A stretch of 19,843 bases of DNA from an uncultured Sphingomonas sp. (GTDB lineage Bacteria; Pseudomonadota; Alphaproteobacteria; Sphingomonadales; Sphingomonadaceae). A model generated the notes under the pieces. That model was not told the origin of the DNA. It worked only from the letters and a program-made list of their open reading frames with translations, and did not search any database. This document shows positions 1-17,517 of the stretch, one piece after another. The first letter of the stretch is position 1, and every line of letters starts with the position of its first letter. The translations under genes were made by a program, and so were the position numbers. The stretch is taken from positions 1 to 19,843 of the forward strand of contig CAMPJH010000007.1 of the NCBI GenBank assembly GCA_946886845.1, given 5' to 3'.

Positions 1-14
1 GGACTCACTGGACA

Positions 15-1820
15 TCATCGATAACTCCAAGGCCACAGGCGAGTTGTAAGCGAGACAAGGATCCGCGGATCCGGCTTCCGATCCTCAATGCCGACTCGAG
101 AGAGCGGAACGGCGACGGCAGCATCGAGCAGGAAGCGGTCGTAGGTGATCCGCGCGCCGCCGCCGACCGAACTGAGGTGCTTCGACTGCTCGACGACGAA
201 CAGCCGGTCGAGATTGCTGACCCGCGCGTGGTCGAAAAAGGCATAGCCCTGGATTGCGGCCCGCCGGGCGCTGGTCGGGACCGTGCTTCCGACCCGGATC
301 TCGGCCTGGGTTCCCCAACCGCGATCGCCGAGAAGCGAGCCCGGATCATAGCCGCGGCCGACCGTATAATTGCCGGCCGAGAATTCCTCGAAGCTCAGCA
401 GCGGCTTCCACGCATATTGCGCGCGCGCGCCGAGCGAGAGGGTCAGCTTTGGAGCCGGGCGGAATTCTCCGTAGAGCAAGGCGCGAACGACCGCCGCGGT
501 CGACCGACCCTCGAGCCGGCTGGGCGGGACCTGGCCGGGGCCCAGGCAGGCGGCGCCTGTCGGGCCGCAGTCCTTTGTCGCCCCGAGGATGTCGAGCCCC
601 TTGCGAAATTCGAGCAAGCCGCTGAACCGCCACAACGGCTCGGCCAGCGATCGGCCTCTCGCGAAGTGTGTGCTCATCGCGTCGAGCCCGAGCCGCGCGA
701 ACGCAACCCGGATGCGGTCGCGAGCCAGGTCGATCGAATCGATTTCAACGTCCTGGTTGACGATGTCCATGCCGGCCGTGCCGCGCAGGTTGCGCGAGAG
801 GCTGCGCAGGAATGGATAGTCGGCCTGCAGCGTCGCCAGCAGTGTCCTGGCACGAACGTCGCTGTCGCCCTCGATCGACGGATGCGCCCAGGCGTAGGTG
901 AACAGGCCGCCGAGGCCGAGCCCTTCCGAGCCCAGCTTGAAGTCGTGGCCGAGTTGCAGCGTTTGCTGCTCCTTGAGATCCGCGGTGCTGAACGCCGCGA
1001 TCGTCGTCCGGTCGCCAAGGCCGGTCAGCCCGAACAACTGGCCGCGGACCAGGCCGCCCCAGCGGCCCAGTTCGCGCGAGCCGCCATTCTGGACGTTGAA
1101 GTCCGCATAAGCCGGCGTGCGCTGGACGGTGACGTCACCGATCACTTCGCCGGGCGTGCTGCCGGCGGGACGAAGGGTCAGCCGAACCAGATAGCCCGGA
1201 AGGTCGCTGGCCAGCAGCAGATAGCGTTCGGCCTCATAACGGTTAAAGACCGGTTGCTTGGTCAGCTGGTTAAGATAGCCGGCGATGATCCGTTCGGCGC
1301 CGGTGGCGTTGCCGCGCACCCGAACCTCGGTCAGCCGTGCCATCAGCACTCGGAAGCGGACGACTCCGTCGGCGATCCTCTGTTCAGGCACTTCGACGGC
1401 GGCAATATAGCCGGCGTTGCGAAGGATCGTCGCGGCGCGATCGCGGATTTCGCAGACCACGGAGATCGGTTGCTCGGTCCCGACATACGATGAATAGGCG
1501 GACTGAAGCTCCGTTGCGCTCAGCCCCTGCAAGCCCTCGAACTCGGCGCCGCGCACGGTGATCCGAATGTTCTGGAACTCGGGATTGTCGAGTGCGCACG
1601 GGGCGCGTTCGATCTCGCCCTCGACCTCGAGTCGCGGCGCGCGCACTTCCGGCGGCGGCGCTTCGGGGCGAGTCACTTCCTCGCGAGTCGGAGGCAGAAC
1701 TTGCGGCGCTGTCTGCGCCGCAGCGGTTGCGGAAGCGGATGCAAGAATCGACGTCAGCAAAAGCGCCGATACCCATCGCCTGCCGCCTTCGCGGAATTGC
1801 TTACCCGTCACTATGAACAT
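15..1820 (-). CDS. ShlB/FhaC/HecB-type (TpsB) outer-membrane transporter
   Basis: The 601-residue product has a Sec-type signal peptide (about residues 1-34, with a hydrophobic run around ALLLTSILASASA). A POTRA-like periplasmic part follows (roughly 70-220, including EIRDRAATILRNAGY), then a long beta-rich region to the C-terminus. The motif GRGYDPG near residues 488-494 matches the VRGY/F motif on loop L6 of the Omp85/TpsB barrel. In known two-partner systems such a protein is the outer-membrane pore that exports a large TpsA passenger. No TpsA-like gene with a TPS or haemagglutinin N-terminal domain is visible here, although one could lie beyond the left edge. I chose the ATG at 1818-1820 because it starts the signal peptide and has a purine-rich AGGGGAGGGG upstream. 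An open frame reaches 1919 but adds no recognisable sequence. It is divergent from the repeat-protein gene. Family assignment is strong; the substrate is unknown. Confidence 0.9.
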   Translation of the reverse strand: MFIVTGKQFREGGRRWVSALLLTSILASASATAAAQTAPQVLPPTREEVTRPEAPPPEVRAPRLEVEGEIERAPCALDNPEFQNIRITVRGAEFEGLQGLSATELQSAYSSYVGTEQPISVVCEIRDRAATILRNAGYIAAVEVPEQRIADGVVRFRVLMARLTEVRVRGNATGAERIIAGYLNQLTKQPVFNRYEAERYLLLASDLPGYLVRLTLRPAGSTPGEVIGDVTVQRTPAYADFNVQNGGSRELGRWGGLVRGQLFGLTGLGDRTTIAAFSTADLKEQQTLQLGHDFKLGSEGLGLGGLFTYAWAHPSIEGDSDVRARTLLATLQADYPFLRSLSRNLRGTAGMDIVNQDVEIDSIDLARDRIRVAFARLGLDAMSTHFARGRSLAEPLWRFSGLLEFRKGLDILGATKDCGPTGAACLGPGQVPPSRLEGRSTAAVVRALLYGEFRPAPKLTLSLGARAQYAWKPLLSFEEFSAGNYTVGRGYDPGSLLGDRGWGTQAEIRVGSTVPTSARRAAIQGYAFFDHARVSNLDRLFVVEQSKHLSSVGGGARITYDRFLLDAAVAVPLSRVGIEDRKPDPRILVSLTTRLWPWSYR

Positions 1821-1875
1821 TAGGGGCGCCCCTCCCCTGTAGCGCGAGTCGCGCCCCAGAGCCTCCAATTTAGAG

Positions 1876-1887
1876 CAGGTTAACCTG
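1876..1887. repeat. 12-bp perfect palindrome CAGGTTAACCTG
   Basis: A perfect 12-bp palindrome lies between the candidate TpsB promoter and the TpsB start, so it would sit in the 5' leader. It could be an operator half-site pair or part of a CtrA-like element (TTTA-N7-TTAACC on the plus strand). No function can be assigned. Confidence 0.3.
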
Positions 1888-1905
1888 TTTCCTACAAGCC
1901 AAATT

Positions 1906-1950
1906 AATATACCGCTCAAGTCGTTAGAGGCGATATTCTGTCTCTAAACG
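1906..1950 (-). promoter_or_regulatory. Candidate TpsB promoter with inverted-repeat operator
   Basis: On the minus strand TATATT (1906-1911) matches the sigma-70 -10 consensus in five of six positions, but there is no good -35 upstream. In its place lies an imperfect inverted repeat, TTAGAG (1924-1929) and CTCTAA (1942-1947), with 12 bp between the arms and flanking CG/GTT bases partly symmetric. Its centre falls near -37 relative to a start around 1899. A regulator bound there could supply the missing -35 contact. This is inference only. Confidence 0.35.
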
Positions 1951-2201
1951 AGACTTTGGCGGCGCCATTTCGCTCCAGGCGGGGGCGTCGATTGACTCCG
2001 AAACGGCTATTAAGCGCCGTCGAGTCGCGCAGCGATCTGATCGGCGATTTCTGTCGCACGCGCGAAGTTCGAATCTTGATGAGTTCGTGCCTCTCAAGCC
2101 CGGTTTGACACGGCTCCGTTACATTGACTCTGCGTTAACAGATGATACCCCTGCACGGTTAAGCTCAATGGGGGCTTGGCATCAAAACAGGGAGTTGCGC
2201 C

Positions 2202-3761
2202 ATGACCGGGACCACGGCCAACAATCGCAAATATCTAGCAACTGGAGCGGCGATTCTCGTCGTCGCAGCCGGAGCCTATGGGCTTGGGCGAGTCTATCCG
2301 CCGCTCGGGCCGAGCGCCGGCACCATCGCGCCGGCCGAGCGCTACCAATCGAGCCAGGTCGGCGAAGGCGATGTGACGCTCGGCGACACTTCGGTGGCCG
2401 AGCTGATGCAAACCGACGTGTTCGAACTGATGGTTCACGACGAAAACTTCCGCGCGCTGGCGGCGAGCCCGGGCTTCAAGGCCCTGGCCGGACAGCCGCA
2501 AGTGATGGCGGCGCTGATGGCCAATCCAAAGGCGTTTGCAGCGCTGGCCGCCAATCCGAAGGCATTCGAGGGCGTTGCGCACGCAGCCCAACAAGCTTCG
2601 GCGCTGGCGCCAAAGGCTAGCCAGGCTTCGGCTCAGCTGATGAACGCGATCGCTGCCCACCCGAAGGCAATGGAAGCGCTTGCTGCGCATCCCCAGGCCT
2701 TGGCCGGAATCGCCAGCAATGCTTCGGCGTTCAGCAGTTTCGCGTCGAACGCGAATGCGTTTCGTAATGCCGCTTCGAACGCAGCGGCCAACGCCCACAT
2801 GGCCAGCAACGCCGCCGCATTCGCGCGACTTGCGAGCGACAATTCAGCGATGAGCGCGCTTTCAGCCGACCCGTCGGTATTCAGCGCGCTCGCTGCCAAT
2901 GCCGCGGCGTTCAAGGCGCTTTCCGCTCAGCCGCAAGCCCTTGCCGCGACAGTGAACAGCGCCGCGGCTGCGGCTCGCCAGCTTCAGTCGGCGGGCATCT
3001 CGAGCTCGGCGATGGCCGCGATCGCGGCGCATTCGAATGCCTATGCGGCGCTTGCCGGGCAGCCGAAGGCGCTGGCGGCTATCGCTGCGCATTCCAAGGC
3101 ATTCGCCGCGTTGTCGGCGCATCCGCAGGCGCTTGCGGCGATCCTGTCGAATGCGTCCGCCTTCAGCAGCTTTGCAAGCAACGCGAATGCGTTCCGCAAT
3201 GCCGCTGCGAATGCGGCCGCCGATGCGCGGCTGGCCAGCAACGCCGCCGCTTTCGCCAGGCTCGCAAGCGACAATGCGGCGATGAGTGCGCTCGCCGCCG
3301 ACCCGCGGTTCTTCTCCGCGGTCAGCAGCAACGCCCTCGCTTTCGGCGGGATCGCCAGCAATGCGCGAATGCTCAGCCCGCAACTGATTGCGGCGATCGG
3401 CAACAACGCCTCTGCCTTTTCGAGCATGGCGAGCAATGCTGCCCAGTTGAGCTCGTCGGCGCGGGCGATTCAGGCCCTCAACGCCCATGCGCTGGTTGCG
3501 TCGGCAGCGGCGGCCGGACAGCTCAATGCGAGCGCGTCACAAGCCGTGCTTGCCAATCCGCATGCTTTTGCGGCGATGGCGGCTAATCCGCGGGCATTCG
3601 AAGCGGTCAGCCAGAATTCGGCGGCGCTTGCAGCGCTTTCGTCGAACCAGAAGGCGCTCGCGGCGCTCGCGGCGCAACCAAATCTCTCGGCGCTGATGGC
3701 CAACCCGAACTTCTCGGCGGCGCTGAGCCAGGCCGGAGTGTCTCAGGCCCAAGCGAACTGA
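2202..3761 (+). CDS. Membrane-anchored alanine-rich decapeptide-repeat protein, unknown function
   Basis: I do not recognise a family for this 519-residue protein. A short basic N-terminus (NNRK) precedes one hydrophobic segment at about residues 11-32. That suggests a single-pass inner-membrane anchor with the remainder in the periplasm, or an uncleaved signal. Residues 33-80 are acidic and non-repetitive (VAELMQTDVFELMVHDE). From about residue 81 to 509 the chain is almost wholly ten-residue repeats with consensus A-L-A-A/S-N/H-P/A-x-A-F. Phe/Leu and Leu/Ile are spaced i,i+3, and Asn-Pro recurs at the junctions. The protein has no Cys or Trp. Pro after a capping residue in each unit suggests short helices stacked as a solenoid or rod, but this is inference. 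The ATG has GGGAG seven bases upstream. The next gene starts 25 bp after the stop, so the two are probably co-transcribed. A structural or surface role is plausible and untested. Confidence 0.85.
   Translation: MTGTTANNRKYLATGAAILVVAAGAYGLGRVYPPLGPSAGTIAPAERYQSSQVGEGDVTLGDTSVAELMQTDVFELMVHDENFRALAASPGFKALAGQPQVMAALMANPKAFAALAANPKAFEGVAHAAQQASALAPKASQASAQLMNAIAAHPKAMEALAAHPQALAGIASNASAFSSFASNANAFRNAASNAAANAHMASNAAAFARLASDNSAMSALSADPSVFSALAANAAAFKALSAQPQALAATVNSAAAAARQLQSAGISSSAMAAIAAHSNAYAALAGQPKALAAIAAHSKAFAALSAHPQALAAILSNASAFSSFASNANAFRNAAANAAADARLASNAAAFARLASDNAAMSALAADPRFFSAVSSNALAFGGIASNARMLSPQLIAAIGNNASAFSSMASNAAQLSSSARAIQALNAHALVASAAAAGQLNASASQAVLANPHAFAAMAANPRAFEAVSQNSAALAALSSNQKALAALAAQPNLSALMANPNFSAALSQAGVSQAQAN
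2442..3728 (+). repeat. Array of about 40 degenerate 30-bp (decapeptide) coding repeats
   Basis: Ten-residue units follow each other in register in blocks covering residues about 81-130, 147-250, 268-390 and 446-509, with irregular linkers between them. Clear examples are ALMANPKAFA, ALAANPKAFE, AIAAHPKAME, ALAAHPQALA and AMAANPRAFE. Units have diverged at the DNA level, so this is an old, selected protein repeat and not a fresh microsatellite. Confidence 0.85.
2700..3323 (+). repeat. Internal duplication of a 64-residue repeat block (432-bp offset)
   Basis: Residues 167-230 (2700-2891) and 311-374 (3132-3323) align without gaps over six or more decapeptides. Shared segments include SNASAFSSF, ASNANAFRNA, ASNAAAFARLASDN and MSAL. 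The copies are clearly related in DNA but with many third-position differences. The array therefore grew partly by copying a multi-unit block of 144 residues. Confidence 0.8.
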
Positions 3762-3767
3762 CCTGAG

Positions 3768-3783
3768 CGGCTTGGGGGAGCCG
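3768..3783 (+). promoter_or_regulatory. Intercistronic hairpin holding the downstream ribosome binding site
   Basis: CGGCT (3768-3772) and AGCCG (3779-3783) form a 5-bp stem with loop TGGGGG. The Shine-Dalgarno sequence GGGGGAG (3774-3780) of the next gene lies in the loop and stem, three bases before its ATG at 3787. This could lower translation of the downstream protease relative to the repeat protein. The stem is short, so the effect may be small. Confidence 0.35.
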
Positions 3784-3786
3784 TAA

Positions 3787-6700
3787 ATGGGGGTTGCGTA
3801 TTCCAACGGGCGCCGGCTTGCATCCTGCACGCTGGCGCTCGTTGTCGCCGCCTCCGGAACCGCCGCCCTGGGTCAGACCCCGGCCAAGCAGCCTCCCCCG
3901 CCGCCGCCCGCGGACACGACCACGATCGTCGAAGATCCCGACGCGGTGCCGCCCTCGCCGCAGGATCCTCCTCCTGTCGAACCGGAGCAACAGGGCCCGG
4001 AACATGTGCCGCCGGACGCTTCGGGCTTTCATCTTTCGACGCTGGAAACGGCGAACCTGTCGCTGCTCTATATCGACCCGCTGCAGACGTACCTGACACC
4101 TTATGTCGCGCGCGCGTTCGAAAACTCGCTGGCCTTCCACAAGAAGCAATTCCAGTGGGAGCCGTGGGACCGGACCACGATGCTGCTCAAGGACTTCTCC
4201 GACTATGGCAATGCCGCCGCGCTCGGATCCCCAAGCAACATGGTGCTGCTCGACGTGGCGCCGCTGTCGCTGTCGATGGAGACTTTTTCGCCCGGCGAGC
4301 GCTTCTTCACCCTGACCAACCACGAGCTCGCCCACGTTGCCGCGATCGATGTCTGGAACAAGCGGGACGCGTTCTGGCGCAGGTTTCTCGGCGGCAAGCC
4401 GATGCCCTTGCAGAAGCACCCGGAATCGATCCTCTACAATTTCCTGACCAGCCCGCGGAACCTGACTCCGCGCTGGTACATGGAAGGCAGCGCGGTCTTC
4501 TTCGAAACCTGGATGGCCGGCGGCCTCGGCCGGGCGCAGGGCGCCTTCGACGAAATGGTCTTCCGGGCGAAAGTCCGGGATGGCACCCGCATCTATTCGC
4601 CGCTTGGCCTCGAGAGCGAAGGCACCTCGTCCGACTTCATGGTCGGTGCCAATTCCTATCTCTACGGCACCCGATTCTTTTCGTATCTCGCCTTGACCTA
4701 CGGCCCCGAACGCACGGTCGAATGGCTTCGCCGATCGGAGGATTCGAAGGCGTTTTACGCCAGTCAGTTCAAGCATGTTTTCGGCAAGCCGCTCGACACC
4801 GCGTGGGATGAGTGGGTCGCCTTCGAACACGGCTTCCAGAAGGCCAACCTCGACGCGATCGGACGCTATCCGCTGACCGAGGTTCGCCACCTCAGCCCAC
4901 GCGGGCTGGGATCGATGTCGCGCGGCTTCGTCGACGAGAAGACCAACAGCCTGATCGCCGCCTTCCGCTACCCCGGCCGGATCGGTTTCCTTGGGCGAAT
5001 GGACATGGCGACGGGCAAGCTGACTCCGCTCACCGATCTCGACGGGATGATGCTGTACAAGGTGACCAGCGTCGCCTTCGATCCCGACAGCCGGACCGCT
5101 TTCTACACCAATCAGAATTACGCCTTTCGCGAGCTGATGGCGATCGACGTCGACACCGGCCGAAAGCGCCTGCTCCTCAAGGATGCGCGGATCGGCGACC
5201 TTGCGTTCAACCGCGCTGACAAGAGCCTGTGGGGAATCCGCCACCAGAACGGGTTCGTGACGCTGGTCAGGATTCCCGCTCCCTACACCAGCTTCAACCA
5301 GGTCAAGACGTTCCGTTACGGCGAAATCCTTTTCGATCTCGATGTCTCGCCCGACGGCGAGCTGGTTTCGGCCTCCTACGGAACCGTCGACGGCAAGCAG
5401 TCGGTCAAGGTGTGGAAGCGCGCGGACATCGAGCAGGGAGATGCCGAAAACCCGGTCGCGACGCTTTCGCTAAGCCCCGCCATACCGGAGAATTTTGCCT
5501 TCACGCCCGACGGCAAGGCGCTGCTCGGCACCGCATATTTCACCGGCGTGTCCAACGTCTTCCGCTTTGACATCGCGAGCGGCGAATATCAGGCCCTGAC
5601 CAACGCCTCGACCGGCTTCTTCCGGCCGCAGCTTCGTCCCGATGGCTCGCTGCTGGTCTATGATTACACCGGCGACGGCTTCAACCCGTCGCTGATCCAA
5701 CCGCAGGCGCGCGACGATCTCGCCGCGATCGAGCTGCTCGGGACGCGCGTCGTCAACGCCCATCCCGAGCTCAAGCAATGGGGCGTCGGCTCGCCGGCCA
5801 AGGTCCCGCTCGACGAGCTGATCACCGAGCGAGGCACCTATCGTCCGACGCAGCGGATGCGGTTCGACGCCCATTATCCGATCGTCTCGGGCTACGCCCG
5901 TCAGCCCGCGTTCGGCTATTACATGCATATCGCGGACCCGCTGCAATTCCGGCAATTGAGCGCGAGCATCGCGGTCTCGCCATTCAAGGTTAAGGGAGCG
6001 CAGCGCCTCCATCTCGACGTCGAGTATCAGACGCCGAACTGGAAGTTGCGCTACTGGCACAACCTCGCCGACGTCTATGACCTCGCCGGCCCGGTGCTGC
6101 GAAGCCGCAAGGGCGACGCTTTCATCGTCAGCTACACGCGGCCGCTGATCTACGATCCGCCGCGCCAGCTCGACGTCTTCGGGTCGGCCTCCGCTTTCTT
6201 CGGGCTCGAACAGCTTCCCGGCGCGCAGAATATCCCGAGCCCGAAGAATCTGCGCTCGGCCGAAATCGGGCTGCGCTATACGAACACCACGAAAGCGCTT
6301 GGCGGAGTCGATCATGAAAAGGGCATCGCCGGTCGGATCGTCGCCGCCGCGGACCAGGCGCAGGGACGAGTTTTCCCGCGCCTCTATGGCGGAATCGACA
6401 TCGGCACGGCCTTGCCGTGGAGCAACAGCTCGGCCTGGATCTATGCCCATGCCGGAATGGTCGGCGGCCAGCGGCTGAACCCGCTCGCCGCATTCTATTT
6501 CGGCTCGTTCCGCAACAATTACGTCGATGACCGGCCGGAGAAACGGTATCGCGAACTGGAGAGCTTTCCTGGTTTCGAGATCGACGAGATCGCCGCTCGG
6601 CAATTCGCCAAGGTGACGGGCGAAGTGAACCTGCCGCCGATCCGTTTCGCCGAGGCCGGAACCGCCGCCTTTTACCTGAGCCATCTGCGCCCGGCGCTCT

Positions 6701-6891
6701 TCGCCGGCGCAATGGCGACCAAGACTCCGGACGGCGACGGCCGCAACTATTACACCGTCGGCGGTCAGCTTGACCTCAACTTCACGATCGCCATGCGGCT
6801 GCCGATGATCTTTTCGGTCGGCGCCGCCGCCGGCTTCGAGGACGGCCACTATCGCAAGACCGAGTGGCTGGCCTCGCTGAAGATCATGTAA
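3787..6891 (+). CDS. Exported gluzincin-like metalloprotease with beta-propeller and probable outer-membrane barrel
   Basis: The 1034-residue product begins with a signal peptide (1-29, cleavage near AALG/Q) and a proline- and acid-rich linker (33-77). A zinc-protease module at about 78-330 carries HELAH (179-183) and, 50 residues later, WYMEGSAVFFE with Glu233. The HExxH...(W)xxEGxA layout matches the Peptidase_MA/M1-like gluzincins. Residues about 345-650 contain repeated propeller-like blades (DVSPDGELVSASYG, AFTPDGKALLG, RPDGSLLVYD), as in TolB/PD40 proteins. From about 680 to the end, alternating aromatic and polar strands (for example YYTVGGQLDLNF) suggest an outer-membrane beta-barrel, so the protein may be surface-anchored. 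The ATG has GGGGGAG upstream. It follows the repeat gene by 25 bp and precedes the PrsW gene by 2 bp. Protease and propeller calls are good; the barrel is inference. Confidence 0.8.
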   Translation: MGVAYSNGRRLASCTLALVVAASGTAALGQTPAKQPPPPPPADTTTIVEDPDAVPPSPQDPPPVEPEQQGPEHVPPDASGFHLSTLETANLSLLYIDPLQTYLTPYVARAFENSLAFHKKQFQWEPWDRTTMLLKDFSDYGNAAALGSPSNMVLLDVAPLSLSMETFSPGERFFTLTNHELAHVAAIDVWNKRDAFWRRFLGGKPMPLQKHPESILYNFLTSPRNLTPRWYMEGSAVFFETWMAGGLGRAQGAFDEMVFRAKVRDGTRIYSPLGLESEGTSSDFMVGANSYLYGTRFFSYLALTYGPERTVEWLRRSEDSKAFYASQFKHVFGKPLDTAWDEWVAFEHGFQKANLDAIGRYPLTEVRHLSPRGLGSMSRGFVDEKTNSLIAAFRYPGRIGFLGRMDMATGKLTPLTDLDGMMLYKVTSVAFDPDSRTAFYTNQNYAFRELMAIDVDTGRKRLLLKDARIGDLAFNRADKSLWGIRHQNGFVTLVRIPAPYTSFNQVKTFRYGEILFDLDVSPDGELVSASYGTVDGKQSVKVWKRADIEQGDAENPVATLSLSPAIPENFAFTPDGKALLGTAYFTGVSNVFRFDIASGEYQALTNASTGFFRPQLRPDGSLLVYDYTGDGFNPSLIQPQARDDLAAIELLGTRVVNAHPELKQWGVGSPAKVPLDELITERGTYRPTQRMRFDAHYPIVSGYARQPAFGYYMHIADPLQFRQLSASIAVSPFKVKGAQRLHLDVEYQTPNWKLRYWHNLADVYDLAGPVLRSRKGDAFIVSYTRPLIYDPPRQLDVFGSASAFFGLEQLPGAQNIPSPKNLRSAEIGLRYTNTTKALGGVDHEKGIAGRIVAAADQAQGRVFPRLYGGIDIGTALPWSNSSAWIYAHAGMVGGQRLNPLAAFYFGSFRNNYVDDRPEKRYRELESFPGFEIDEIAARQFAKVTGEVNLPPIRFAEAGTAAFYLSHLRPALFAGAMATKTPDGDGRNYYTVGGQLDLNFTIAMRLPMIFSVGAAAGFEDGHYRKTEWLASLKIM

Positions 6892-6893
6892 AG

Positions 6894-7946
6894 ATGGCCT
6901 GGTTCCTGACCGAGATCGCCCACTGGGGACTGGCGCTGGTGCCAGTCCTCATCCTGCTTTCAATCTTCGTCTGGCTCGACGCCTTCAAGCTGACTAGTCT
7001 CAAGGAAATCCTGGTCCTGCTGCTGCTCGGCGGGATTGCCGCGCTCGCCGCCTGGCCGGTCAGCGGCCGGCTGATCGACACCCTGCCGATCGGCTTTTCC
7101 AATTACAGCCGCTTCATCGCGCCGTGGTTCGAGGAGGCGCTCAAGGCCGCCGTCATCATCCTGCTCTTTCGCTTCAACCGCGTCGGCTACAAGGTCGACG
7201 CGGTGATCGCCGGCTTTGCCGTCGGCGCCGGCTTCTCGGTCGTCGAGAACGTCTTTTACCTGGCCATCTTCCCTGATTACGGCGCCGGCACCTGGCTGGT
7301 GCGCGGGCTTGGGACCGCGGTGATGCATGGCACGACCCTGGCGATTCTCGCCGCCGTCGCTCACGAGCTGGCGGAGCGCGAGAATCGCGCCGCGGCCGGC
7401 GACTTCAGCTTCAACCTGCTGTGGTTCGTCCCCGGCTATCTGGTCGCCGTCGGCTTGCACATGGCGTTCAACCAGTTCCCCGACCAGCCGATGCTGGCGA
7501 TGATGGGCGCGGTGATTTTCGCGCCGATCGCGATCCTGGCGATTTTCCACTTCGGCACCGCCGAAGCGCAGCGATGGCTCACCACCGAATCCGCAGCCCA
7601 CCGGTCGCAGCTGGAAGCCCTTCGGGCCGGACGCTGGCCAGAAGGCGCGGCCGGCCGCAAGATCGCCGCGCTCGCCGGTCGCCTCGGTCCGGAGGCCGCC
7701 GGGCGGATCCGCCGCTATTGGGAATTGCAGGCATGGCTGGTCGTCCAGGCCGAGGAAACCCTGATGGAAGAGGCCGCCGGCGACGCCGAGGTTGATTCGG
7801 GCGAGGTGCGGGCGGCATTCGCCGAGATGGCAGGACTGCGGCAGGCGCTCGGCAAGAGCAGCTTCGCCGCGGTCAAGGCGCTGCTTCCGTTCAGCCGCAA
7901 CGATTATTGGGAAGTGTCCGAGCTTCGCCAGCGCCTCTCGCGCTGA
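6894..7946 (+). CDS. PrsW family intramembrane metalloprotease
   Basis: The 350-residue protein has several hydrophobic segments in residues 1-230. It shows PrsW/CAAX-like motifs: EEALK (80-84, with the paired glutamates), FSVVE (114-118) in the next helix, an MHG motif and a later HMAFN. PrsW proteins are polytopic membrane proteases; in Bacillus subtilis PrsW starts cleavage of the anti-sigma factor RsiW. The C-terminal 120 or so residues are soluble, charged and helical, longer than I expect for a minimal PrsW. An in-frame GTG at 6864 lies inside the upstream gene. The ATG at 6894, two bases after the upstream stop, gives a natural first membrane helix, and translation is probably coupled. 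No sigma/anti-sigma pair is adjacent, so the substrate is unknown. The single-pass repeat protein in the same operon is one possibility. Confidence 0.88.
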   Translation: MAWFLTEIAHWGLALVPVLILLSIFVWLDAFKLTSLKEILVLLLLGGIAALAAWPVSGRLIDTLPIGFSNYSRFIAPWFEEALKAAVIILLFRFNRVGYKVDAVIAGFAVGAGFSVVENVFYLAIFPDYGAGTWLVRGLGTAVMHGTTLAILAAVAHELAERENRAAAGDFSFNLLWFVPGYLVAVGLHMAFNQFPDQPMLAMMGAVIFAPIAILAIFHFGTAEAQRWLTTESAAHRSQLEALRAGRWPEGAAGRKIAALAGRLGPEAAGRIRRYWELQAWLVVQAEETLMEEAAGDAEVDSGEVRAAFAEMAGLRQALGKSSFAAVKALLPFSRNDYWEVSELRQRLSR

Positions 7947-7958
7947 CGATCGTCCTCC

Positions 7959-8723
7959 TCAGCCGAACCGCTCGCGAAGCAAGTCGAGCGACGGGTCGTG
8001 GGTGAGGTCGAGGTGAAGCGGAGTGACGCTGACATAGGCGTCGTCGATCGCTTCGAGGTCGGTCGAGTGGCCGGGCGTCTGGACCATCGGGCCGAGCCCG
8101 AACCAATAGTAATTGTAGCCGCGAGGGTCGGTCCGCTCGACGATCCGCAAGCGGCCGTAGTCGCGGATTCCCTGTCGGCAAATGCGAATGCCGTTGATCT
8201 TCTCGGGCGGCAGCGCCGGAAAATTTACGTTGATCAGGGTTCCGGGCGGCGGCTCGAAATCCATTAGCGGCGCAAGCACCCTCTCCGCCCAGGCCTCGGC
8301 GGCCGCGAAAGGGACAGTGTCGCCCATGCCCTCACGCGAGTAGCTCTGGCTGAGGGCGATCGAGCGGACTCCGGCGAGCGCGCCCTCCATCGCCGCCGAC
8401 ACGGTGCCCGAATAGGTCACGTCTTCGCCGAGATTGGCCCCGCGGTTGATGCCTGACAGAATCAGGTCGGGCGGCGAGTCCTTCATGACGTGCGCAAGGG
8501 CCAGCATCACCGCATCGGTCGGGGTGCCGGTGACCGAGAATCGCTTCTTGTCGTGGCGGCGCAGGCGAATCGGCTGGGTCAGGGTCAGCGAGTGACCGGC
8601 GCCGGATTGCTCCTCGGTCGGAGCAACCACCCAGACATCGTCCGAGAAACCCTGGGCGATCGTCTCGAGCAGATCGAGGCCGCGGGCGTTGATGCCATCG
8701 TCGTTGGTCAGCAGGATGCGCAT
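7959..8723 (-). CDS. surE: 5'/3'-nucleotidase SurE
   Basis: The 254-residue protein begins MRILLTNDDGI, the signature metal-binding start of SurE, with Asp8-Asp9. It continues with GHSLTLTQPIRL, TGTPTDAV and SGINRGANLGEDVTYSGTV, the conserved active-site blocks. SurE is a cytoplasmic, divalent-metal-dependent nucleoside monophosphate phosphatase linked to stationary-phase survival. The start at 8721-8723 is set by the family N-terminus and by GAGGAG about five bases upstream; the frame is open to 8801. In many proteobacteria surE sits beside pcm or serS, but neither is present here. It converges on the PrsW gene with 12 bp between stops. Confidence 0.96.
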   Translation of the reverse strand: MRILLTNDDGINARGLDLLETIAQGFSDDVWVVAPTEEQSGAGHSLTLTQPIRLRRHDKKRFSVTGTPTDAVMLALAHVMKDSPPDLILSGINRGANLGEDVTYSGTVSAAMEGALAGVRSIALSQSYSREGMGDTVPFAAAEAWAERVLAPLMDFEPPPGTLINVNFPALPPEKINGIRICRQGIRDYGRLRIVERTDPRGYNYYWFGLGPMVQTPGHSTDLEAIDDAYVSVTPLHLDLTHDPSLDLLRERFG

Positions 8724-8846
8724 CGCGCTCCTCATAACGGCCCCGCCGACCCGGGCAACCATGGGTGCCGAACGGACACCGCCGAGCCTAAAATGCGCCA
8801 TATCGGCAACAGCTTGGCGATTTATTGACCGACCCAGTGTCAGCGC

Positions 8847-8875
8847 TTGTTAAGGCCTTGGCCCTTATTTATAGG
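8847..8875 (+). promoter_or_regulatory. Candidate sigma-70 promoter of dksA
   Basis: TTGTTA (8847-8852) and TATAGG (8870-8875) are separated by exactly 17 bp, each matching the consensus in four of six positions. A start near 8882 would give a leader of about 154 nt before dksA. It is the best-spaced promoter-like pair in the 312-bp gap between surE and dksA. Confidence 0.45.
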
Positions 8876-9035
8876 CGCGGTCGGGGATTACCGACTTGCC
8901 CGGTGCTAAACCCCGGGAAAGTCTTGTTGAATCCGCCTCCGGCTGCACCGGTGGCTCCGGTCGCAGCAGCGATGGCGGGCTAGCGGGGGATGCCCTCAGG
9001 CAAGGCGCCTGCGGACAGACTGGGAGGGGTATCAA
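8876..9035 (+). promoter_or_regulatory. Long GC-rich dksA 5' leader with potential hairpins
   Basis: No ORF of note lies here. Potential stems include GTCGG/CCGAC (8880-8884 with 8891-8895), several CCGG-rich segments around 8935-8965 and CAGGC/GCCTG with a five-base loop shortly before the ribosome binding site GGGAGGGG. A tiny MAG-stop frame is also present. I recognise no known riboswitch. The rest of the surE-dksA gap (8724-8846) shows nothing I can name. Confidence 0.35.
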
Positions 9036-9500
9036 ATGGCGACTGCTCTAGTCGATCTTTACAATGAAAAGCCGGTACCGTTCGATCGGATCATCGTTCC
9101 GGAATCCTATCGGCCGTCCGACAAAGACGAGTTCATGTGCGACCTCCATCGCGCCTATTTCCTCAAGAAGCTTCGCGAGTGGAGAGAAGCGGTCATCGAC
9201 GAGTCGCGGCAGACGATGGCGCAGCTCCAGGTCGATTCGCTTCGCGAGCCCGACCTTGCCGACCGCGCGTCCAGCGAAACCGATTGGGGGATCGAGCTTC
9301 GGACCCGCGACCGGCAGCGCAAGCTCATTGCCAAGATCGATAGCGCCATCCGGCGCCTGTACGAAGGCGAATATGGCTATTGCGAGGTGACCGGCGATCC
9401 GATTTCGCTGGCTCGGCTCGAAGCCCGGCCAGTCGCAACGATGACCCTTGAAGCGCAGGAGCGCCACGAGAGGATCGAGAAGGTGTCACGGGACGACTAA
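9036..9500 (+). CDS. dksA: RNA polymerase-binding transcription factor DksA (one-cysteine type)
   Basis: The 154-residue protein has the DksA layout: an N-terminal helical segment, a coiled-coil with the tip motif DLADRA (73-78, matching DxxDxA) and a C-terminal zinc-finger region YGYCEVTGDPISLARLEARP. DksA enters the RNA polymerase secondary channel and with ppGpp retunes rRNA and amino-acid promoters. Only one of the four zinc cysteines remains (Cys116). The other positions are Thr119, Thr137 and Ala140 by alignment with the E. coli protein from memory. Such low-cysteine DksA proteins are known in alphaproteobacteria and are thought to be less dependent on zinc and thiol state. The ATG has GGGAGGGG seven to eight bases upstream. 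The gene is probably monocistronic. Confidence 0.95.
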   Translation: MATALVDLYNEKPVPFDRIIVPESYRPSDKDEFMCDLHRAYFLKKLREWREAVIDESRQTMAQLQVDSLREPDLADRASSETDWGIELRTRDRQRKLIAKIDSAIRRLYEGEYGYCEVTGDPISLARLEARPVATMTLEAQERHERIEKVSRDD

Positions 9501-9550
9501 AGCGCGGGGCGCTTTAGGCGAATGGGACACGCGACGACTAAAGCGTCGCG
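9492..9550 (+). repeat. Duplicated dksA 3' end forming two perfect hairpins
   Basis: A 13-bp sequence GACGACTAAAGCG, which holds the last two dksA codons and its stop, recurs 41 bp downstream (9492-9504 and 9533-9545). Each copy lies in a perfect inverted repeat. One is CTAAAGCG/CGCTTTAG with loop CGGGG (9497-9517). The other is CGCGACG/CGTCGCG with a 7-base loop (9530-9550). Neither is followed by a T-run on the plus strand, so they are not classic intrinsic terminators, though they may protect the 3' end of the mRNA or end both converging transcripts. Confidence 0.55.
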
Positions 9551-9566
9551 CTAGGCCGGCTCGGGC

Positions 9567-9731
9567 TCAATGCTCGTAATGGCCGGCGAGCTCGTCCTTG
9601 AGCTTCAGTTTTTCTTTCTTGAGCTGATGGAGAAGATCTTCGTTCGGGTGCGGCCGATGCTCCTCTTCGTCGATCATCGCGTGGAGCGCCGCGTGCTTGG
9701 ATGCGAGAGTGTCGGCCTGTGCCTTGTCCAT
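9567..9731 (-). CDS. YdcH family (DUF465) small protein
   Basis: A 54-residue frame begins MDKAQADTLASKHAALHAMI and ends KLKDELAGHYEH. The pattern of Leu-x-x-x-His/Lys helical residues, the EEEHRPHPNE turn and the KKEKLKLKDEL block are typical of the DUF465/YdcH family of short alpha-helical hairpins. Its function is not established. AAAGGAA lies about ten bases before the ATG. It converges on dksA and diverges from the rcdA-like gene. Confidence 0.9.
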   Translation of the reverse strand: MDKAQADTLASKHAALHAMIDEEEHRPHPNEDLLHQLKKEKLKLKDELAGHYEH

Positions 9732-9961
9732 CGGTGCCAGTTCCTTTCGTGAACACGAGTGACAACCGACACTAGTAAATCACGTTTTTTGCAATTTGTC
9801 TTGGGGCTGTAACAACCGCCCACCCGGCCGCTCGCGCGTCCTGCCGCGATGCGACAATGCCTGGTCATTCACCGTCCCGCTTCGGGACAGCGGCCCGCCG
9901 ACGGCGCCGAATGACGATGTTGTGCGTTTTCTCGGGCTCCCGAAAGTGGCAGTTGAGCGCG

Positions 9962-10447
9962 ATGGACGACTCACGCGAAGTCCCCGATTCGGAAGCCCGC
10001 ATCACCCCGCGGCTGATCAACTCCTTTTACACGGAGGCGATGCTGCTGGCCGACGAGGCCCGTTCCTATTTCGACGACGCCGGCCGTGGTGAGCGCGACG
10101 GCCTCGACCCGTTCATCCGGGTCAGCTTCGCCTGCGAATCGCTCAAGGTCACGACCCGGATCATGCATATCGTCGCCTGGCTCTTGACCCAGCGCGCAAT
10201 CGAAAGCGGCGAAATCGCCTTGCGCGAAGGCCGCCGGCCCGAGCGCCGGCTGGGCAACGCCCAGGAAAGCGATCCGGCGGTGATCGCGCGGCTGCCGGAA
10301 GCCGCCCGGCGCCTGGCGAATGCGAGCTCCGATCTTTACGCGCGGGTGAAGCGGCTCGACGAGGGCAGCCTCGCCGACGAGCCGCCGCAGAGCCCGGCGC
10401 GGGCGCTGATGGGTCGCCTCGAGCGCGGCCTCACCGGACAGCCTTAG
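9962..10447 (+). CDS. DUF1465 / RcdA-like protein
   Basis: The 161-residue, mostly helical protein carries FYTEAMLLADEARSYF and, further on, ESLKVTTRIMHIVAWLL followed by TQRAIESGEI. These match the DUF1465 family, which to my knowledge includes RcdA of Caulobacter. RcdA is an adaptor that helps ClpXP degrade CtrA and other cell-cycle factors. Whether this protein has that role here is inference. The open frame extends to 9857, but the extra 35 residues are arginine-rich and atypical. I prefer the ATG at 9962 (MDDSREVPDSE), although it has only a weak ribosome binding site; 9911 is an alternative. Its 3' end overlaps the converging nitronate monooxygenase gene by 17 bp. The 230-bp region upstream (9732-9961) holds a hairpin GTCCCG-CTT-CGGGAC at 9874-9888 and no clear promoter. 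Confidence 0.82.
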   Translation: MDDSREVPDSEARITPRLINSFYTEAMLLADEARSYFDDAGRGERDGLDPFIRVSFACESLKVTTRIMHIVAWLLTQRAIESGEIALREGRRPERRLGNAQESDPAVIARLPEAARRLANASSDLYARVKRLDEGSLADEPPQSPARALMGRLERGLTGQP

Positions 10448-11405
10448 CCTCGCACAGGCGCTTCAGCGCCGCGTCATATTCGCGAGCAAGCGTGGCGACA
10501 TAGTCGGCCGCCGGCTGGACTTTGTCGATCACTCCAATGCCCTGTCCCGAGCCCCAGATGTCGCGCCACGCCTTGCTCTTTGTCGATCCGTCCGAGCCGA
10601 ATTCGGTCGGCAGGGATTCGACCTTGTCGAGTGAGTCGGGGTCGAGCCCGGAGCGTTCGATCGACGAGCGAAGGTAGTTGCCGGCGATCCCCGTGAACAA
10701 GGCGCTGTTGACGATGTCGGCGGCGCCGGCGGCGACAATCGCTTGCCGATATTCGTCGGCGCAGCGCGCCTCTGGAGTGGCGATGAACGGCGAGCCGACA
10801 TAAGCCAGATCGGCGCCCATTGCCTGTGCGGAAAGCACCGCCGAGCCGGTGGCGATCGCTCCCGACAGGATAAGCGGCCCCTCGAACCACAGGCGGATCT
10901 CCTGGACCAAGGCGAACGGCGACCAGCGGCCGGCATGTCCCCCCGCACCCGCGGCGACCGCGATCAATCCGTCGGCGCCCTTGGCCACGGCCTTCCTTGC
11001 GAAGCGGTCGTCGATGATGTCGTGGAGCGTAATCCCGCCCCACCCGTGAACCGCCTGGTTGAGCTCCTCGCGCGCGCCCAGCGAGGTGATGACGATCGGC
11101 ACCTTCCACTTCTCGCAGACCGCCATGTCGGCTTCGAAGCGGTCGTTGGAGCGGTGAACGATCTGGTTGACGGCGAACGGCGCCGCCGGCCGGTCGGGAT
11201 GTTCGCGATCATGAGCCGCGAGCGCTTCCGTGATCTCGTGCAGCCATTCATCGAGCTGCGCCGCCGGACGCGCGTTGAGCGCCGGAAAGCTGCCGACGAT
11301 CCCGGCCGTGCACTGCGCAATCACCAGCTTGGGGTTGGAAATGATGAACAGCGGCGCGCCGATCACCGGCAAGCGCAAGCGAGACAGGATAGAAGGAAGT
11401 GTCAT
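10431..11405 (-). CDS. Nitronate monooxygenase (2-nitropropane dioxygenase family)
   Basis: The 324-residue TIM-barrel flavoprotein begins with LPVIGAPLFIISNPKLVIA, the usual N-terminal strand and FMN-site region. It has GAGGHAGRWSPFALV, holding the expected active-site His, and GAIATGSAVLSAQAMGADLAYVGSPF, the phosphate-binding strand pair. Family members oxidise alkyl nitronates such as propionate-3-nitronate with FMN and oxygen; the natural substrate is uncertain. The ATG at 11403-11405 has a G-rich stretch upstream. It follows dusB on the same strand by 33 bp and may be co-transcribed with it. Its 3' end overlaps the rcdA-like gene by 17 bp on the other strand. Confidence 0.92.
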   Translation of the reverse strand: MTLPSILSRLRLPVIGAPLFIISNPKLVIAQCTAGIVGSFPALNARPAAQLDEWLHEITEALAAHDREHPDRPAAPFAVNQIVHRSNDRFEADMAVCEKWKVPIVITSLGAREELNQAVHGWGGITLHDIIDDRFARKAVAKGADGLIAVAAGAGGHAGRWSPFALVQEIRLWFEGPLILSGAIATGSAVLSAQAMGADLAYVGSPFIATPEARCADEYRQAIVAAGAADIVNSALFTGIAGNYLRSSIERSGLDPDSLDKVESLPTEFGSDGSTKSKAWRDIWGSGQGIGVIDKVQPAADYVATLAREYDAALKRLCEAKAVR

Positions 11406-11438
11406 CGTGCCCCCCGGCGCCGGTTCAAAAACGCGCGA

Positions 11439-12437
11439 TCAGGCAGCGGCGCGCGTCAGCCAAGGCGCATAATAATCGCGGAGCATCGCCACGACCGTGT
11501 CCGGGTCATCCTGCTGGTTGACCCGATTGCGAAGCTCGGCCGAGCCGGGCAGGCCCTTGGTGTACCAGCCGATATGCTTGCGGGCGAGGTTGACGCCGGT
11601 GTGCCGTCCGTAAAGCGACAACATCTCGTCATACTGGCCGAGCATGACTTCGAGCTGCTCGTCGAGCGACGGCTCGCTCCAGGCGCCATCCTTGGTCAAC
11701 TCGGCCATCGCCTGCGCCAGCAGCCAGGGGCGACCGTAAGCGCCGCGGCCGATCATCACTCCGTCTGCGCCCGACTGGCGAAGCGCCGAGCGGGCGTCCT
11801 CGACCGAGCATATGTCGCCGTTGACGATCACCGGAATCGAAACCGCGTCCTTCACCTTGCGGACAAAGCGCCAATCGGCGTCCCCTTTGTACATTTGGCA
11901 CCGGGTGCGGCCGTGGACGGTGATCATCTTCACGCCCGCGCTTTCGGCGATCCGCGCCAGCTCGGGCGCGTTCAGGCTCGAATGATCCCAGCCCATGCGC
12001 ATCTTGAGGGTGACCGGCACGTTCACCGCTTCCACCGTCGCCTCGACGATCGCCGCCGCCAGCGGTAGGTCGCGCATCAGCGCCGACCCCGCCTCGCCAT
12101 TGACCACCTTCTTGACCGGACAGCCCATGTTGATGTCGATGATCGCGGCGCCGCGCTGCTCGTTGAGACGCGCGGCTTCGGCCATTACCTTGGGCTCGCA
12201 GCCGGCAAGCTGCAGCGACACCGGCTGCTCCGACTGGTCCCACAAGGATTTTTGCAGCGACTGGCGGGTCTCGCGGATCATCGCCTGGCTGGCGATCATC
12301 TCGCTGACTGTCAGCCCGGCGCCGTAGCGCTTGACCGCCCGCCGGAACGGCAGGTCGGTGACGCCCGTCATCGGCGCCAGGATTACTGGCGAGTCGATCC
12401 GGACTGGTCCGACTTGTATGGGCTTCAGGACGCTCAT
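11439..12437 (-). CDS. dusB: tRNA-dihydrouridine synthase DusB
   Basis: The 332-residue flavoenzyme starts with VILAPMTGVTDLPFRRAV, the Dus signature, and has MGCPVKKVVNGEAGSALM with the catalytic Cys106. It reduces uridine in the tRNA D-loop with NADPH and FMN. The ATG at 12435-12437 (MSVLKPIQVG) matches the family start; the frame is open to 12476. In many alphaproteobacteria dusB (nifR3) is followed by ntrB and ntrC. Here it is followed by a nitronate monooxygenase instead. It diverges from ispDF with 65 bp between start codons. Confidence 0.95.
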   Translation of the reverse strand: MSVLKPIQVGPVRIDSPVILAPMTGVTDLPFRRAVKRYGAGLTVSEMIASQAMIRETRQSLQKSLWDQSEQPVSLQLAGCEPKVMAEAARLNEQRGAAIIDINMGCPVKKVVNGEAGSALMRDLPLAAAIVEATVEAVNVPVTLKMRMGWDHSSLNAPELARIAESAGVKMITVHGRTRCQMYKGDADWRFVRKVKDAVSIPVIVNGDICSVEDARSALRQSGADGVMIGRGAYGRPWLLAQAMAELTKDGAWSEPSLDEQLEVMLGQYDEMLSLYGRHTGVNLARKHIGWYTKGLPGSAELRNRVNQQDDPDTVVAMLRDYYAPWLTRAAA

Positions 12438-12502
12438 GGGATCGCGGCATGTAGGCGACCAGCCCTTGGCGGACAAGGCGAGCGGCCCTAGAGCCGCGCT
12501 CC

Positions 12503-13645
12503 ATGAGCGTGACAGCGCTAATCGTCGCCGCCGGCAAGGGCGAGCGCCTCGGCGGCGGTCTGCCCAAGCAGTATCGGCCGCTTGGCGGCAAGCCGGTCCT
12601 TCGCCGCGCAGTCGAGGCTCTGGCCTCGCATCCGGCGATCGGCGCCCTGCGCGTGGTGATCGGTGCCGGCCAACATGATCTTGCCAACGAGGCGCTGGCG
12701 GGGCTCGACGTCGGGCCGCTGATCGAGGGCGGCGCCGAGCGCGCCGATTCCGTCCGCGCCGGCCTCGGCCAGATCGCCAGCGATGTAGTGCTCGTGCATG
12801 ATGCCGCCCGTCCCTTCTGCCCCCCCGCCGTCATTGACCGGCTGCTCGCGCCGCTCGAATTCTTCGACGGGGCTGCGCCGGTGCTTGCGGTGGGCGACAC
12901 TCTGGCGCGCGCGGGCGACCAGATCGAAACACCGGTCGACCGTAGCGGGCTGGTGCGTGTGCAGACACCCCAGGCGTTCCGGCTCGGGGCGCTTCGCCGG
13001 GCTTATGAATCCTGGAGCGGCCAGGCGGCGACCGACGAAACCACCGTCGCCCGCGCCGCCGGTCTCGGAGTCGCGGCGGTCGAAGGCGATCCGGCGCTCG
13101 AGAAGATCACCACCACCGCCGACTTCGCTCGCGCCGAGCAATGGCTGGCCGCGCGGCTCGTTTCCCGCACCGGCGTCGGCTTCGACGTCCACGCCTTTGC
13201 CGACAACGGCCCGATCATGATGGGCGGGATCGAAATTCCGCACGAGCGCGGCCTGGCCGGCCACAGCGACGCCGACGTCGTCCTGCACGCGATCACCGAC
13301 GCGCTGCTGGGGGCGGCTGGGCTCGGCGACATCGGCGAGTTTTTCCCGCCGGCCGATCCGCAGTGGAAGGGCGCCTCATCGGACCGCTTCCTCGCGCACG
13401 CGGCCGCTCTGGTTCGCGAGCTTGGCGGCGTGATCGACAACGTCGACTGCACCGTGATTTGCGAAGCGCCCAAAGTCGCCCCGCATAGGGAGCAAATGCG
13501 CGCCCGGATCGCTGAGATCCTGCGCGTTCGGCAAAGCCAGGTGAGCATCAAGGCGACCACCACCGAACGTCTGGGCTTCACCGGGCGCGGCGAGGGCATT
13601 GCCGCGCAGGCGGTGGCGAATATCCGTCTGGAGATGAGCGAATGA
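12503..13645 (+). CDS. ispDF: Bifunctional MEP cytidylyltransferase / MEcPP synthase IspDF
   Basis: The 380-residue fusion carries two steps of the non-mevalonate isoprenoid pathway. Residues about 1-215 are IspD, with [19 protein letters not shown] (CTP-binding loop) and VHDAARPF. Residues about 220-380 are IspF, with GFDVHAF and [19 protein letters not shown] (zinc ligands Asp, His, His) and [17 protein letters not shown] at the C-terminus. IspD makes CDP-methylerythritol and IspF makes the cyclic diphosphate; the intermediate IspE is separate. IspDF fusions are common in alphaproteobacteria. The stop overlaps the next start (ATGA), indicating translational coupling. The ribosome binding site is weak. 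Confidence 0.97.
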
Positions 13646-14145
13646 GTGAAAGGCTTCTCCCGCAGGAACTGTACGACAAGGCGAAGGAAGTGGTCGACGC
13701 CAACCGCAAGCTCGGCCGGCGCGTGGCGGTGGCGGAAAGCTGCACCGGCGGCCTGGTTTGCGCCGCTCTGACCGAGATCCCGGGATCGTCGGAGATCTTC
13801 GAAGCCGGCTACGTGACCTATTCGAACGCGTCGAAGATCGACGATCTCGGAGTCAGCTCGGAAGTCGTCGAGACGTTTGGCGCGGTCAGCGTCGCGACCG
13901 CCTGGGCAATGGCGCGCGGCGCGCTTTCAGCGTCGAACGCCGACATCGCCGTCGCGATCACCGGGATCGCGGGACCCGGCGGCGGAACCCCGACCAAGCC
14001 GGTCGGAACGGTCGTCTTCGCACGAGCCGAGCGCGACGCCGATCCATCGCAGATCGTCGCCGACCAGAAGCATTTCGATGCCGTCGGCCGGGCCGGCGTG
14101 CGGCTTCAGGCGACGCTCTGCGCGCTCGACCTGCTGATGCCGTAG
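13642..14145 (+). CDS. CinA C-terminal-type nicotinamide-nucleotide amidohydrolase (PncC)
   Basis: The 167-residue protein is a stand-alone CinA_C domain with [27 protein letters not shown] and [20 protein letters not shown], the conserved blocks of the PncC family. These enzymes deamidate nicotinamide mononucleotide in NAD recycling. The N-terminal CinA (ADP-ribose pyrophosphatase) half is absent, as is usual for short PncC proteins. The start overlaps the ispDF stop by four bases. The last 40 bp overlap the 3' end of the opposing ratA-like gene. Confidence 0.93.
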
Positions 14146-15484: not shown

Positions 15485-15549
15485 GCGCGCCAGATAGCGA
15501 TGCTCCGGCCCGCTTGCCACCCCCGCGGCGGCGATCTAGCGCAACCGCC

Positions 15550-16185: not shown

Positions 16186-16203
16186 GTCACGAAGCGCAAT
16201 CAA

Positions 16204-16560: not shown

Positions 16561-16640
16561 AACCTTGGTCCTCCAAAACGCTTTCCCCGGAAATCCCATG
16601 CGGATTCAGTGCACGAGAAGGCGTTTCGTTCCCGCATCGA

Positions 16641-16660
16641 TCATGTACGGTTCATGTACG
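16641..16660. repeat. Two 9-bp direct repeats TCATGTACG, 11-bp period
   Basis: TCATGTACG occurs at 16641-16649 and again at 16652-16660 in the 180-bp gap between the lipoprotein and NYN genes, which diverge. The 11-bp period puts both copies on nearly the same DNA face, as expected for tandem sites of a regulator. No known binding site matches. The rest of the gap shows no clear promoter. Confidence 0.35.
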
Positions 16661-16740
16661 CGACAGGTTGCGCGGTCAGCTGTGGTCATTCCGCGACGCC
16701 GCGGTAGATGGGACTCCAAGCAGTGAGGATTCGCGAGACG

Positions 16741-17469: not shown

Positions 17470-17470
17470 C

Positions 17471-17495: not shown

Positions 17496-17517
17496 CGCTC
17501 CAGCAAGGAGCAAGGCC

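Follow-up and report, generated by a model that had tools for sequence, protein, structure and literature searches.

A decapeptide-repeat protein of an uncultured Sphingomonas: a possible exchangeable periplasmic arm in a PrsW-linked gene set

What is the role of a protein that consists, behind a single membrane anchor, of ten-residue repeats running almost to its end? The question is raised by a stretch of 19,843 nucleotides from an uncultured Sphingomonas sp. (GenBank assembly GCA_946886845.1, contig CAMPJH010000007.1, positions 1 to 19,843; hereafter the window), in which an open reading frame (ORF) of 519 amino acids (aa) encodes such a protein, here called DECA. An original prediction, made from the letters of the sequence, had placed a decapeptide-repeat protein at 2442-3728, which corresponds to DECA residues 81-509 and lies in frame with the ORF. 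The informative context of this protein is its gene neighbourhood, and the analysis points to a conserved three-gene set formed by the repeat protein, a protein with an HExxH site and a propeller (OMPprot), and a protease of the PrsW family. With a probability of roughly 0.48, DECA may act as the periplasmic sensor or scaffold arm of a PrsW-linked envelope-stress module.

The window protein is composed of 12 residues, the anchor, the segment AGTIAPAERYQSSQVGEGDVTLGDTSVAELMQTD and the repeats. Its parts are the following.

2202..3761, forward strand: ORF of the repeat protein DECA, 519 aa (relatives in 24 loci; purifying selection)
2238..2288, forward strand: single N-terminal membrane anchor, residues 13-29 (inspection of the sequence)
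2319..2417, forward strand: conserved juxtamembrane module GTIAPAERYQSSQVGEGDVTLGDTSVAELMQTD, residues 40-72 (alignments A4 and A9)
2421..3740, forward strand: decapeptide array of 34 units with ten interruptions, residues 74-513 (ten-residue profile; AlphaFold2 helices)
2646..2912, forward strand: internal duplication, copy 1, residues 149-237 (71/89 identical)
3078..3344, forward strand: internal duplication, copy 2, residues 293-381 (71/89 identical)

The single anchor had been predicted correctly, and an AlphaFold2 helix at residues 9-30 covers it with low confidence. The decapeptide period is also real. In residues 81-510, identity at a lag of 10 reaches 0.369 (z = 11.8 relative to 1000 shuffles that preserve composition), with z values of 6.3 and 4.5 at lags 20 and 30; lags 5, 7 and 11 give -2.7, 1.9 and -3.1, which rules out pentapeptide, heptad and hendecad repeats, as had been claimed. 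A profile of the ten-residue unit places 34 non-overlapping units and scores 385.6, whereas 100 shuffles score 168.6 on average and at most 216.1. Since the shuffled sequences also give a mean of 22.8 units (at most 29), the score is a stronger test than the unit count, and the two shuffle tests, lag-10 z and profile score, together rule out chance low complexity. The announced 40 or so almost continuous units were too many and too continuous: the ten interruptions span 1-24 residues, and the register is kept across two of them (20 and 10 residues). The unit consensus is F/M/L-A/S-A-L/I-A/S-A/S-N/H/Q/D-P/A-x-A, and an older internal duplication within the array retains 80% identity at an offset of 144 residues. 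At the DNA level the array has diverged, with Tandem Repeats Finder (TRF) covering 9% of the gene and a sole TRF array in the window (3008-3143, 2.3 copies); the periodicity is therefore a protein-level pattern, and a recent microsatellite is ruled out. AlphaFold2 predicts 37 helices in residues 72-510, of which 31 have 7-9 residues, so that each unit probably forms roughly one short helix, as had been proposed. These helices are probably packed as a solenoid, an arrangement that had been named as a possibility and is deduced here from the secondary structure and confidence of the model.

Which genes accompany such a protein? The neighbourhood was compared in 70 loci (60 + 10), using hmmsearch models built from the first 24 loci and the window; the set is without the second G1147 match (L133), and its loci are not independent, L013 and L014 being nearly identical. 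The two partners of DECA in the window are listed below.

3787..6891, forward strand: OMPprot, 1034 aa, partner gene downstream of DECA on the same strand
4321..4335, forward strand: HELAH motif, OMPprot residues 179-183 (HE..H in 19 of 19 listed members)
6864..7946, forward strand: PrsW-family intramembrane protease, 360 aa (PF13367, 65.6 bits, cut-off 23.5)

OMPprot lies downstream of DECA on the same strand in all 58 loci with at least 300 nt after DECA, and 38 of these played no part in building the models. The distance between the two genes is -116 to 181 nt in 56 of the 58, the exceptions being L003 (843 nt, with an ORF between) and L123 (1598 nt, OMPprot appearing as two ORFs). Of the 52 loci testable for PrsW, 50 have it and two, L024 and L081, lack it; the EExxK motif occurs in 14 of 14 listed PrsW members. 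OMPprot combines a signal peptide, recognized by inspection, with a metallopeptidase-like site (HExxH and WxxEGxA) and a TolB-like propeller. Residues H179, E180, H183 and E233 are invariant in the 16 rows of alignment A6, a pattern also seen in gluzincin metallopeptidases. The propeller matches PDB TolB at E 4.7e-07 with the window sequence and more weakly with a profile (E 0.0051 and 0.0092), and PD40 is found in 10 of 16 members. That the C-terminal part is possibly an outer-membrane barrel is suggested only by Omp85_2 and OMP_b-brl, each of which matches one of the 16, below cut-off. Of the three core genes of the window, two, DECA and OMPprot, are without an above-cut-off match in Pfam or NCBIfam.

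The association was also followed in the reverse direction, starting from OMPprot. This gene was found in 4 of 132 genomes of the sphingomonad order, all four with DECA, and in 23 of 147 genomes of one seed order, including all 14 with DECA; the nine remaining OMPprot genomes were examined for the gene that precedes it. That gene has a DECA-type array with a cut or unreadable N-terminus in L160, L161 and L162; in L164 it is a DECA whose array is GNKGLDGQG-like, and L163 shows a partial GDKAGDRA array at the contig end. In L165, and in L166 and L167 (both of G029), it is a short protein with a lipobox-like start, a GTI/ATI-like motif and an Ala-rich tail. The contig extends 174 nt before the OMPprot match in L159 and 366 nt in L149, the latter not scanned. 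The lipoprotein-like versions suggest that the C-terminal part of DECA is extracytoplasmic.

A regulatory link is suggested by the genes upstream and by the fused relatives. Genes for an extracytoplasmic function (ECF) sigma factor and an anti-sigma-like protein precede DECA in 24 of 65 loci and are absent in 41, a count restricted to loci in which both genes are found or the upstream sequence reaches 2500 nt or more. SpoIIE, HATPase and STAS genes likewise stand before DECA in each of the 24 sigma-bearing loci. The Pfam identities of the upstream cluster are taken from L018, in which the anti-sigma-like gene matches zf-HC2 at 15.3 bits, below the cut-off of 22.2. The label gammaproteobacterial, as used for these clusters, derives from the titles of L023 and L024 and from sampling by order around the genomes of L018 and L023. 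No sigma gene is among the listed neighbours in the window.

Among 76 retrieved proteins, 55, chosen by reading and here termed fused, have an extra domain ahead of the anchor, in every case with at least 45 residues before it; analysis A10 leaves out 21 of the 76. One fused relative was modelled, its model resembling RsiW, RslA and ChrR chains, and the fused relatives appear to carry a cytoplasmic anti-sigma domain. The window protein is without such a domain, because just 12 residues precede its anchor. Of 24 anti-sigma-like proteins, 23 have G[TAS][ILMV] within 40 residues past the anchor, where 6.2 would be expected; this is a hint only, as the proteins are related and the pattern is loose. 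The fused relatives and the gammaproteobacterial gene order tie the family to anti-sigma factors. PrsW is described as the presumed site-1 protease that acts on RsiW (PMC4183432). It is these fused relatives, this gene order and the PrsW-RsiW precedent that lead to the array being read as a periplasmic sensor or scaffold arm.

How might such a module work? DECA would be held in the inner membrane by its anchor and would project into the periplasm an arm of short helices, built from units like those of STI1 domains. The window protein would represent the stand-alone form of a family whose fused members seem to bear a cytoplasmic anti-sigma domain. Together, DECA, OMPprot and PrsW could form an envelope-sensing and proteolysis module, presumably co-transcribed, in which the array would be an exchangeable sensing or scaffolding part, perhaps with a binding role. 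In systems that include a sigma/anti-sigma pair, namely the gammaproteobacterial clusters and the fused proteins, PrsW-type cleavage, and with it the freeing of the ECF sigma factor, might depend on the arm's state. The lineage of the window lacks the sigma link in its neighbourhood and keeps the three-gene core.

The family is patchy and mostly rare, as judged from low genome tallies. A phmmer search of a large protein set gave 18 relatives and two more searches brought the retrieved proteins to 76, while one scan of genome contigs gave 24 loci, in records titled Sphingomonas, Sphingomicrobium, Hyphomonadaceae, Caulobacteraceae, Lysobacterales and other metagenome-assembled genomes. With seeds counted in, the A4 search found DECA in 4 of 289 genomes from the class of the Sphingomonas seed, in 2 of 274 from that of the gammaproteobacterial seed, and in 10/196, 14/147, 12/96 and 8/150 genomes of four seed orders. 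The A11 search detected it in 11 of 151 genomes when the order to which L023's genome belongs was sampled, and in one of 398 in a phylum sample, this one being the seed itself. The nearest relatives of the window protein among the compared loci are of the Sphingomonas type, with DECA identities of 74% to L090 and 69% to L001, from Sphingomonas segetis. In alignment A9 (59 of 60 members, L014 left out; L003 was left out of A5), only G40, T41, G61 and Q70 are invariant, all of them juxtamembrane, and R47, Y48, Q52, D57, D62, M69, T71 and D72 of the same region are near-invariant. The conserved part of the family is the anchor with the motif GTIxPAxRY...LMQTD. In four retrieved proteins (P0007, P0060, P0064 and P0068), the decapeptide units give way to NuoG-like, glycosyltransferase-like, other and ECF-sigma-like sequence; their contigs measure 1.3-5.4 kb, and misassembly at the repeats may be the cause.

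Behind this fixed part the array varies. Of 60 members, 38 have a top lag of 10, 20 or 30; another 14, which all come from the gammaproteobacterial set, have 9, 18 or 27; six have a multiple of 4, and L021 and L022 are mixed. The period of 10 named in the original prediction therefore describes the window protein but does not define the family. Array length ranges from 84 to 495 residues among orthologues, some of them cut by contig ends, and so varies in the way that had been named as support for the original prediction. Arrays may even differ between loci that are otherwise close relatives, as in the following two genes.

L018, 9995-10648: DECA gene with a 10-mer array
L082, 1-855: DECA gene with a 9-mer array

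Five neighbour genes of this pair are 80-96% identical, and the DECA genes themselves are similar over the first 219 nt (84%); beyond this point no DNA similarity is reported and the arrays differ. L127 compared with L123 and L125 looks like a second exchange, with neighbours 37-84% identical and the L127 array cut by a contig end. In L089 and L087 the period is common, and DECA is 35% identical while the remaining cluster is 76-94% identical; the L087 array (7188-8303, reverse strand) is a degenerate nine-residue one with a TRF coverage of 0, and that of L089 is highly regular. The period 4/8 arrays of L078, L099, L100, L101, L102 and L103 consist almost wholly of A, S, N, Q, K and D.

Within lineages, the repeats are conserved. 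The repeat dN (nonsynonymous divergence) is 0.023 at a dS (synonymous divergence) of 1.01 for L013/L017, and 0.001 at 0.22 for L013/L014; dN/dS is 0.12 for the window and L090 and 0.25 for the window and L001. Over 15 pairs, several with dS values close to saturation, the ratio runs from 0.00 to 0.40 (the highest for L089/L087) and is undefined in two, L018/L082 and L079/L024. Purifying selection thus acts on the repeats in most close pairs.

The same observations bear on the main rival explanation. The array could be a passive tether or ruler, a spacer that joins the inner membrane to an outer-membrane or periplasmic partner and for which any regular helical or extended Ala-rich sequence would suffice. 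Such a spacer would accommodate the changes of unit length and composition (10, 9, 4/8, the GNKGLDGQG type, short lipoprotein tails) behind an anchor and motif and beside a partner that do not change, and equally the different arrays within near-identical gene clusters. It accords less well with the several-fold variation of array length, and the constraint on array sequence within lineages (L013/L017, L013/L014) is stronger than a free spacer would seem to need. Differing arrays in close relatives, combined with conservation within lineages, are easier to reconcile with a recognition or scaffold part that can be swapped than with a free spacer, and the tether is considered unlikely, though it is the best placed of the alternatives.

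Is the unit itself related to anything known? STI1 domains are small and found in eukaryotic co-chaperones. The window protein has no Pfam or NCBIfam match above cut-off, its best Pfam match being STI1-HOP_DP (22.3 bits, cut-off 29.1), and pentapeptide, TPR, HEAT, coiled-coil and TAL families are absent among its four Pfam matches at E <= 1. Foldseek with the whole window model found no PDB match at E <= 0.001, a resemblance to TAL effectors (Hax3 chains) was rejected at E 0.43 or worse, and VIA and viral-library searches gave no usable match, a result compatible with an STI1 or other solenoid fold. The claim that no family is recognisable thus fits the window protein and fails for some of its relatives. 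At E <= 0.01, stand-alone members match STI1-HOP_DP in 14 of 59 cases and XPC-binding in 16 of 59, and fused relatives in 15 and two of 55, respectively. An L018 fragment reaches 32.3 bits with XPC-binding (cut-off 26.4) and a P0023 fragment 34.2 bits with STI1-HOP_DP (cut-off 29.1), while the window fragment matches XPC-binding only (E 0.029, not above cut-off). In a control set of six sequences, with the two controls of the window fragment left out, three unit-permuted sequences gave no STI1 match and XPC-binding once (E 0.33), and three shuffles gave neither. As permuting the positions within the unit abolishes or weakens these matches of relatives, the unit has a likeness to STI1 and is not without known counterparts. 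Unrelated families (YlbE, DUF826, RPN13_C, CT0912-like_C, Plasmodium_HRP and others) also match the biased arrays, a few above cut-off (YlbE 27.1 vs 27 in L016; CT0912-like_C 28.8 vs 27 in L024). These are taken collectively as probable composition effects, and the STI1 likeness is accordingly a resemblance and not proof of descent.

A second alternative follows from this likeness: the F/L/M-rich arrays could be periplasmic holdases that bind hydrophobic helices or unfolded outer-membrane proteins in the manner of Hop and ubiquilin STI1, with no signalling. A ubiquilin-family STI1 domain binds a transmembrane domain (PMC13083928) and hydrophobic-helix binding by STI1 domains is described (PMC13083955). 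By analogy, F/L/M-rich arrays, including that of the window, possibly bind such helices as well. The above-cut-off matches of L018 and P0023, lost or reduced to E 0.33 on permutation, would suit a holdase, as would precomputed PF17830 in 9 of 40 relatives retrieved in one search. The window match, however, stays under its cut-off, a P0034 fragment matches neither STI1 nor XPC-binding, and biased repeats match unrelated families too. Arrays without bulky hydrophobics, rich in A/S/N/Q or A/S/K/D, occupy the same position and speak against hydrophobic-helix binding as a family-wide function. On balance, a pure holdase is improbable, and more so than a tether.

Two further features lie near the gene set.

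2122..2128, forward strand: CATTGAC element upstream of DECA, possible -35 box (alignment of upstream regions)
15-1919, reverse strand: ShlB/FhaC-type two-partner secretion (TPS) transporter adjoining the gene set

TTGAC is aligned upstream of DECA in 22 of 23 regions, counted by eye, and CATTGAC is possibly a -35 box; an EcfG-type promoter pattern was found in only one of the 23. TpsB, TpsA and/or CHAT genes lie near DECA in seven sphingomonad loci, L002, L003, L004, L006, L008, L009 and L090.

Such genes, present in 8 of 60 loci when the window is included, would fit a third alternative, in which the HExxH protein or PrsW cleaves the array and so releases it, e.g. as a matrix or adhesion component. 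Two putative proteases do adjoin DECA. In the remaining 52 loci, however, of which contig ends truncate some, no TPS/CHAT genes are seen, DECA has no secretion signal apart from its anchor, and the gammaproteobacterial context is regulatory, which makes a released product very improbable. That the array is a low-complexity by-product of unit expansion with no function of its own is hardly credible, for although the arrays are Ala-rich and of low complexity and many gammaproteobacterial ones are homogeneous at the DNA level (TRF coverage 0 to 0.79), the repeats are under purifying selection in most close pairs, the window array is DNA-diverged yet protein-periodic, and the neighbouring genes are retained across loci.

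If DECA does serve as such a sensor or scaffold in the periplasm, envelope sensing by membrane anti-sigma systems, for which other ways are already known, would also include a long exchangeable repeat arm, STI1-like units would gain a bacterial setting, and a natural case would be at hand of a repeat domain that switches unit length between close relatives with its partners unchanged. In searches of the literature on PrsW, anti-sigma, SpoIIE and ECF systems, and on decapeptide and alanine-rich repeats, solenoids and bacterial STI1, no title or abstract opening among the papers listed describes the family; on this ground, and because the window protein is without Pfam and NCBIfam matches above cut-off, the family is apparently undescribed. 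More tentatively still, the array may be a new bacterial alpha-solenoid with one short helix per unit, whose unit length (10, 9 or 4/8) switches by replacement of the whole array behind a fixed anchor and motif. It would then be the interchangeable periplasmic arm of an undescribed PrsW-linked anti-sigma-type module in Alphaproteobacteria, Gammaproteobacteria and Thermoanaerobaculia (the last with one named match, P0022). Both STI1-like units and PrsW/anti-sigma modules have precedents; what is new, as far as found in the literature searched, is that they come together in an exchangeable repeat arm.

Comparison with known systems shows what is shared and what is not. Pentapeptide, TPR, HEAT, coiled-coil and TAL repeats are tandem like those of DECA but differ from its period of 10, which is not 5, 7 or 11. 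STI1-HOP_DP (PF17830), XPC-binding (PF09280) and UBQLN1 (PF23195) share with DECA short helices, an N-P-x-x-hydrophobic pattern and a length of about 9-10 residues, and some relatives match these families above cut-off in a manner that depends on the order within the unit; DECA differs in its 34 tandem units behind a bacterial membrane anchor, and the window protein stays below cut-off. TolB-like propeller proteins share a propeller region with OMPprot; OMPprot differs in being about 1000 aa long, with an HExxH domain in front and an extra C-terminal part. The anti-sigma factors RsiW, RslA and ChrR share with the fused relatives an N-terminal helical domain, one anchor and a tail beyond it, and their systems share with the gammaproteobacterial clusters a nearby ECF sigma gene; the window protein, in contrast, has neither the cytoplasmic domain nor a sigma gene beside it. 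The PrsW-RsiW system of Bacillus subtilis sigma-W has in common with the DECA module a PrsW-family protease nearby and anti-sigma-like relatives, to which the DECA module adds an exported HExxH/propeller protein, a repeat arm and, in Gammaproteobacteria, SpoIIE, HATPase and STAS genes.
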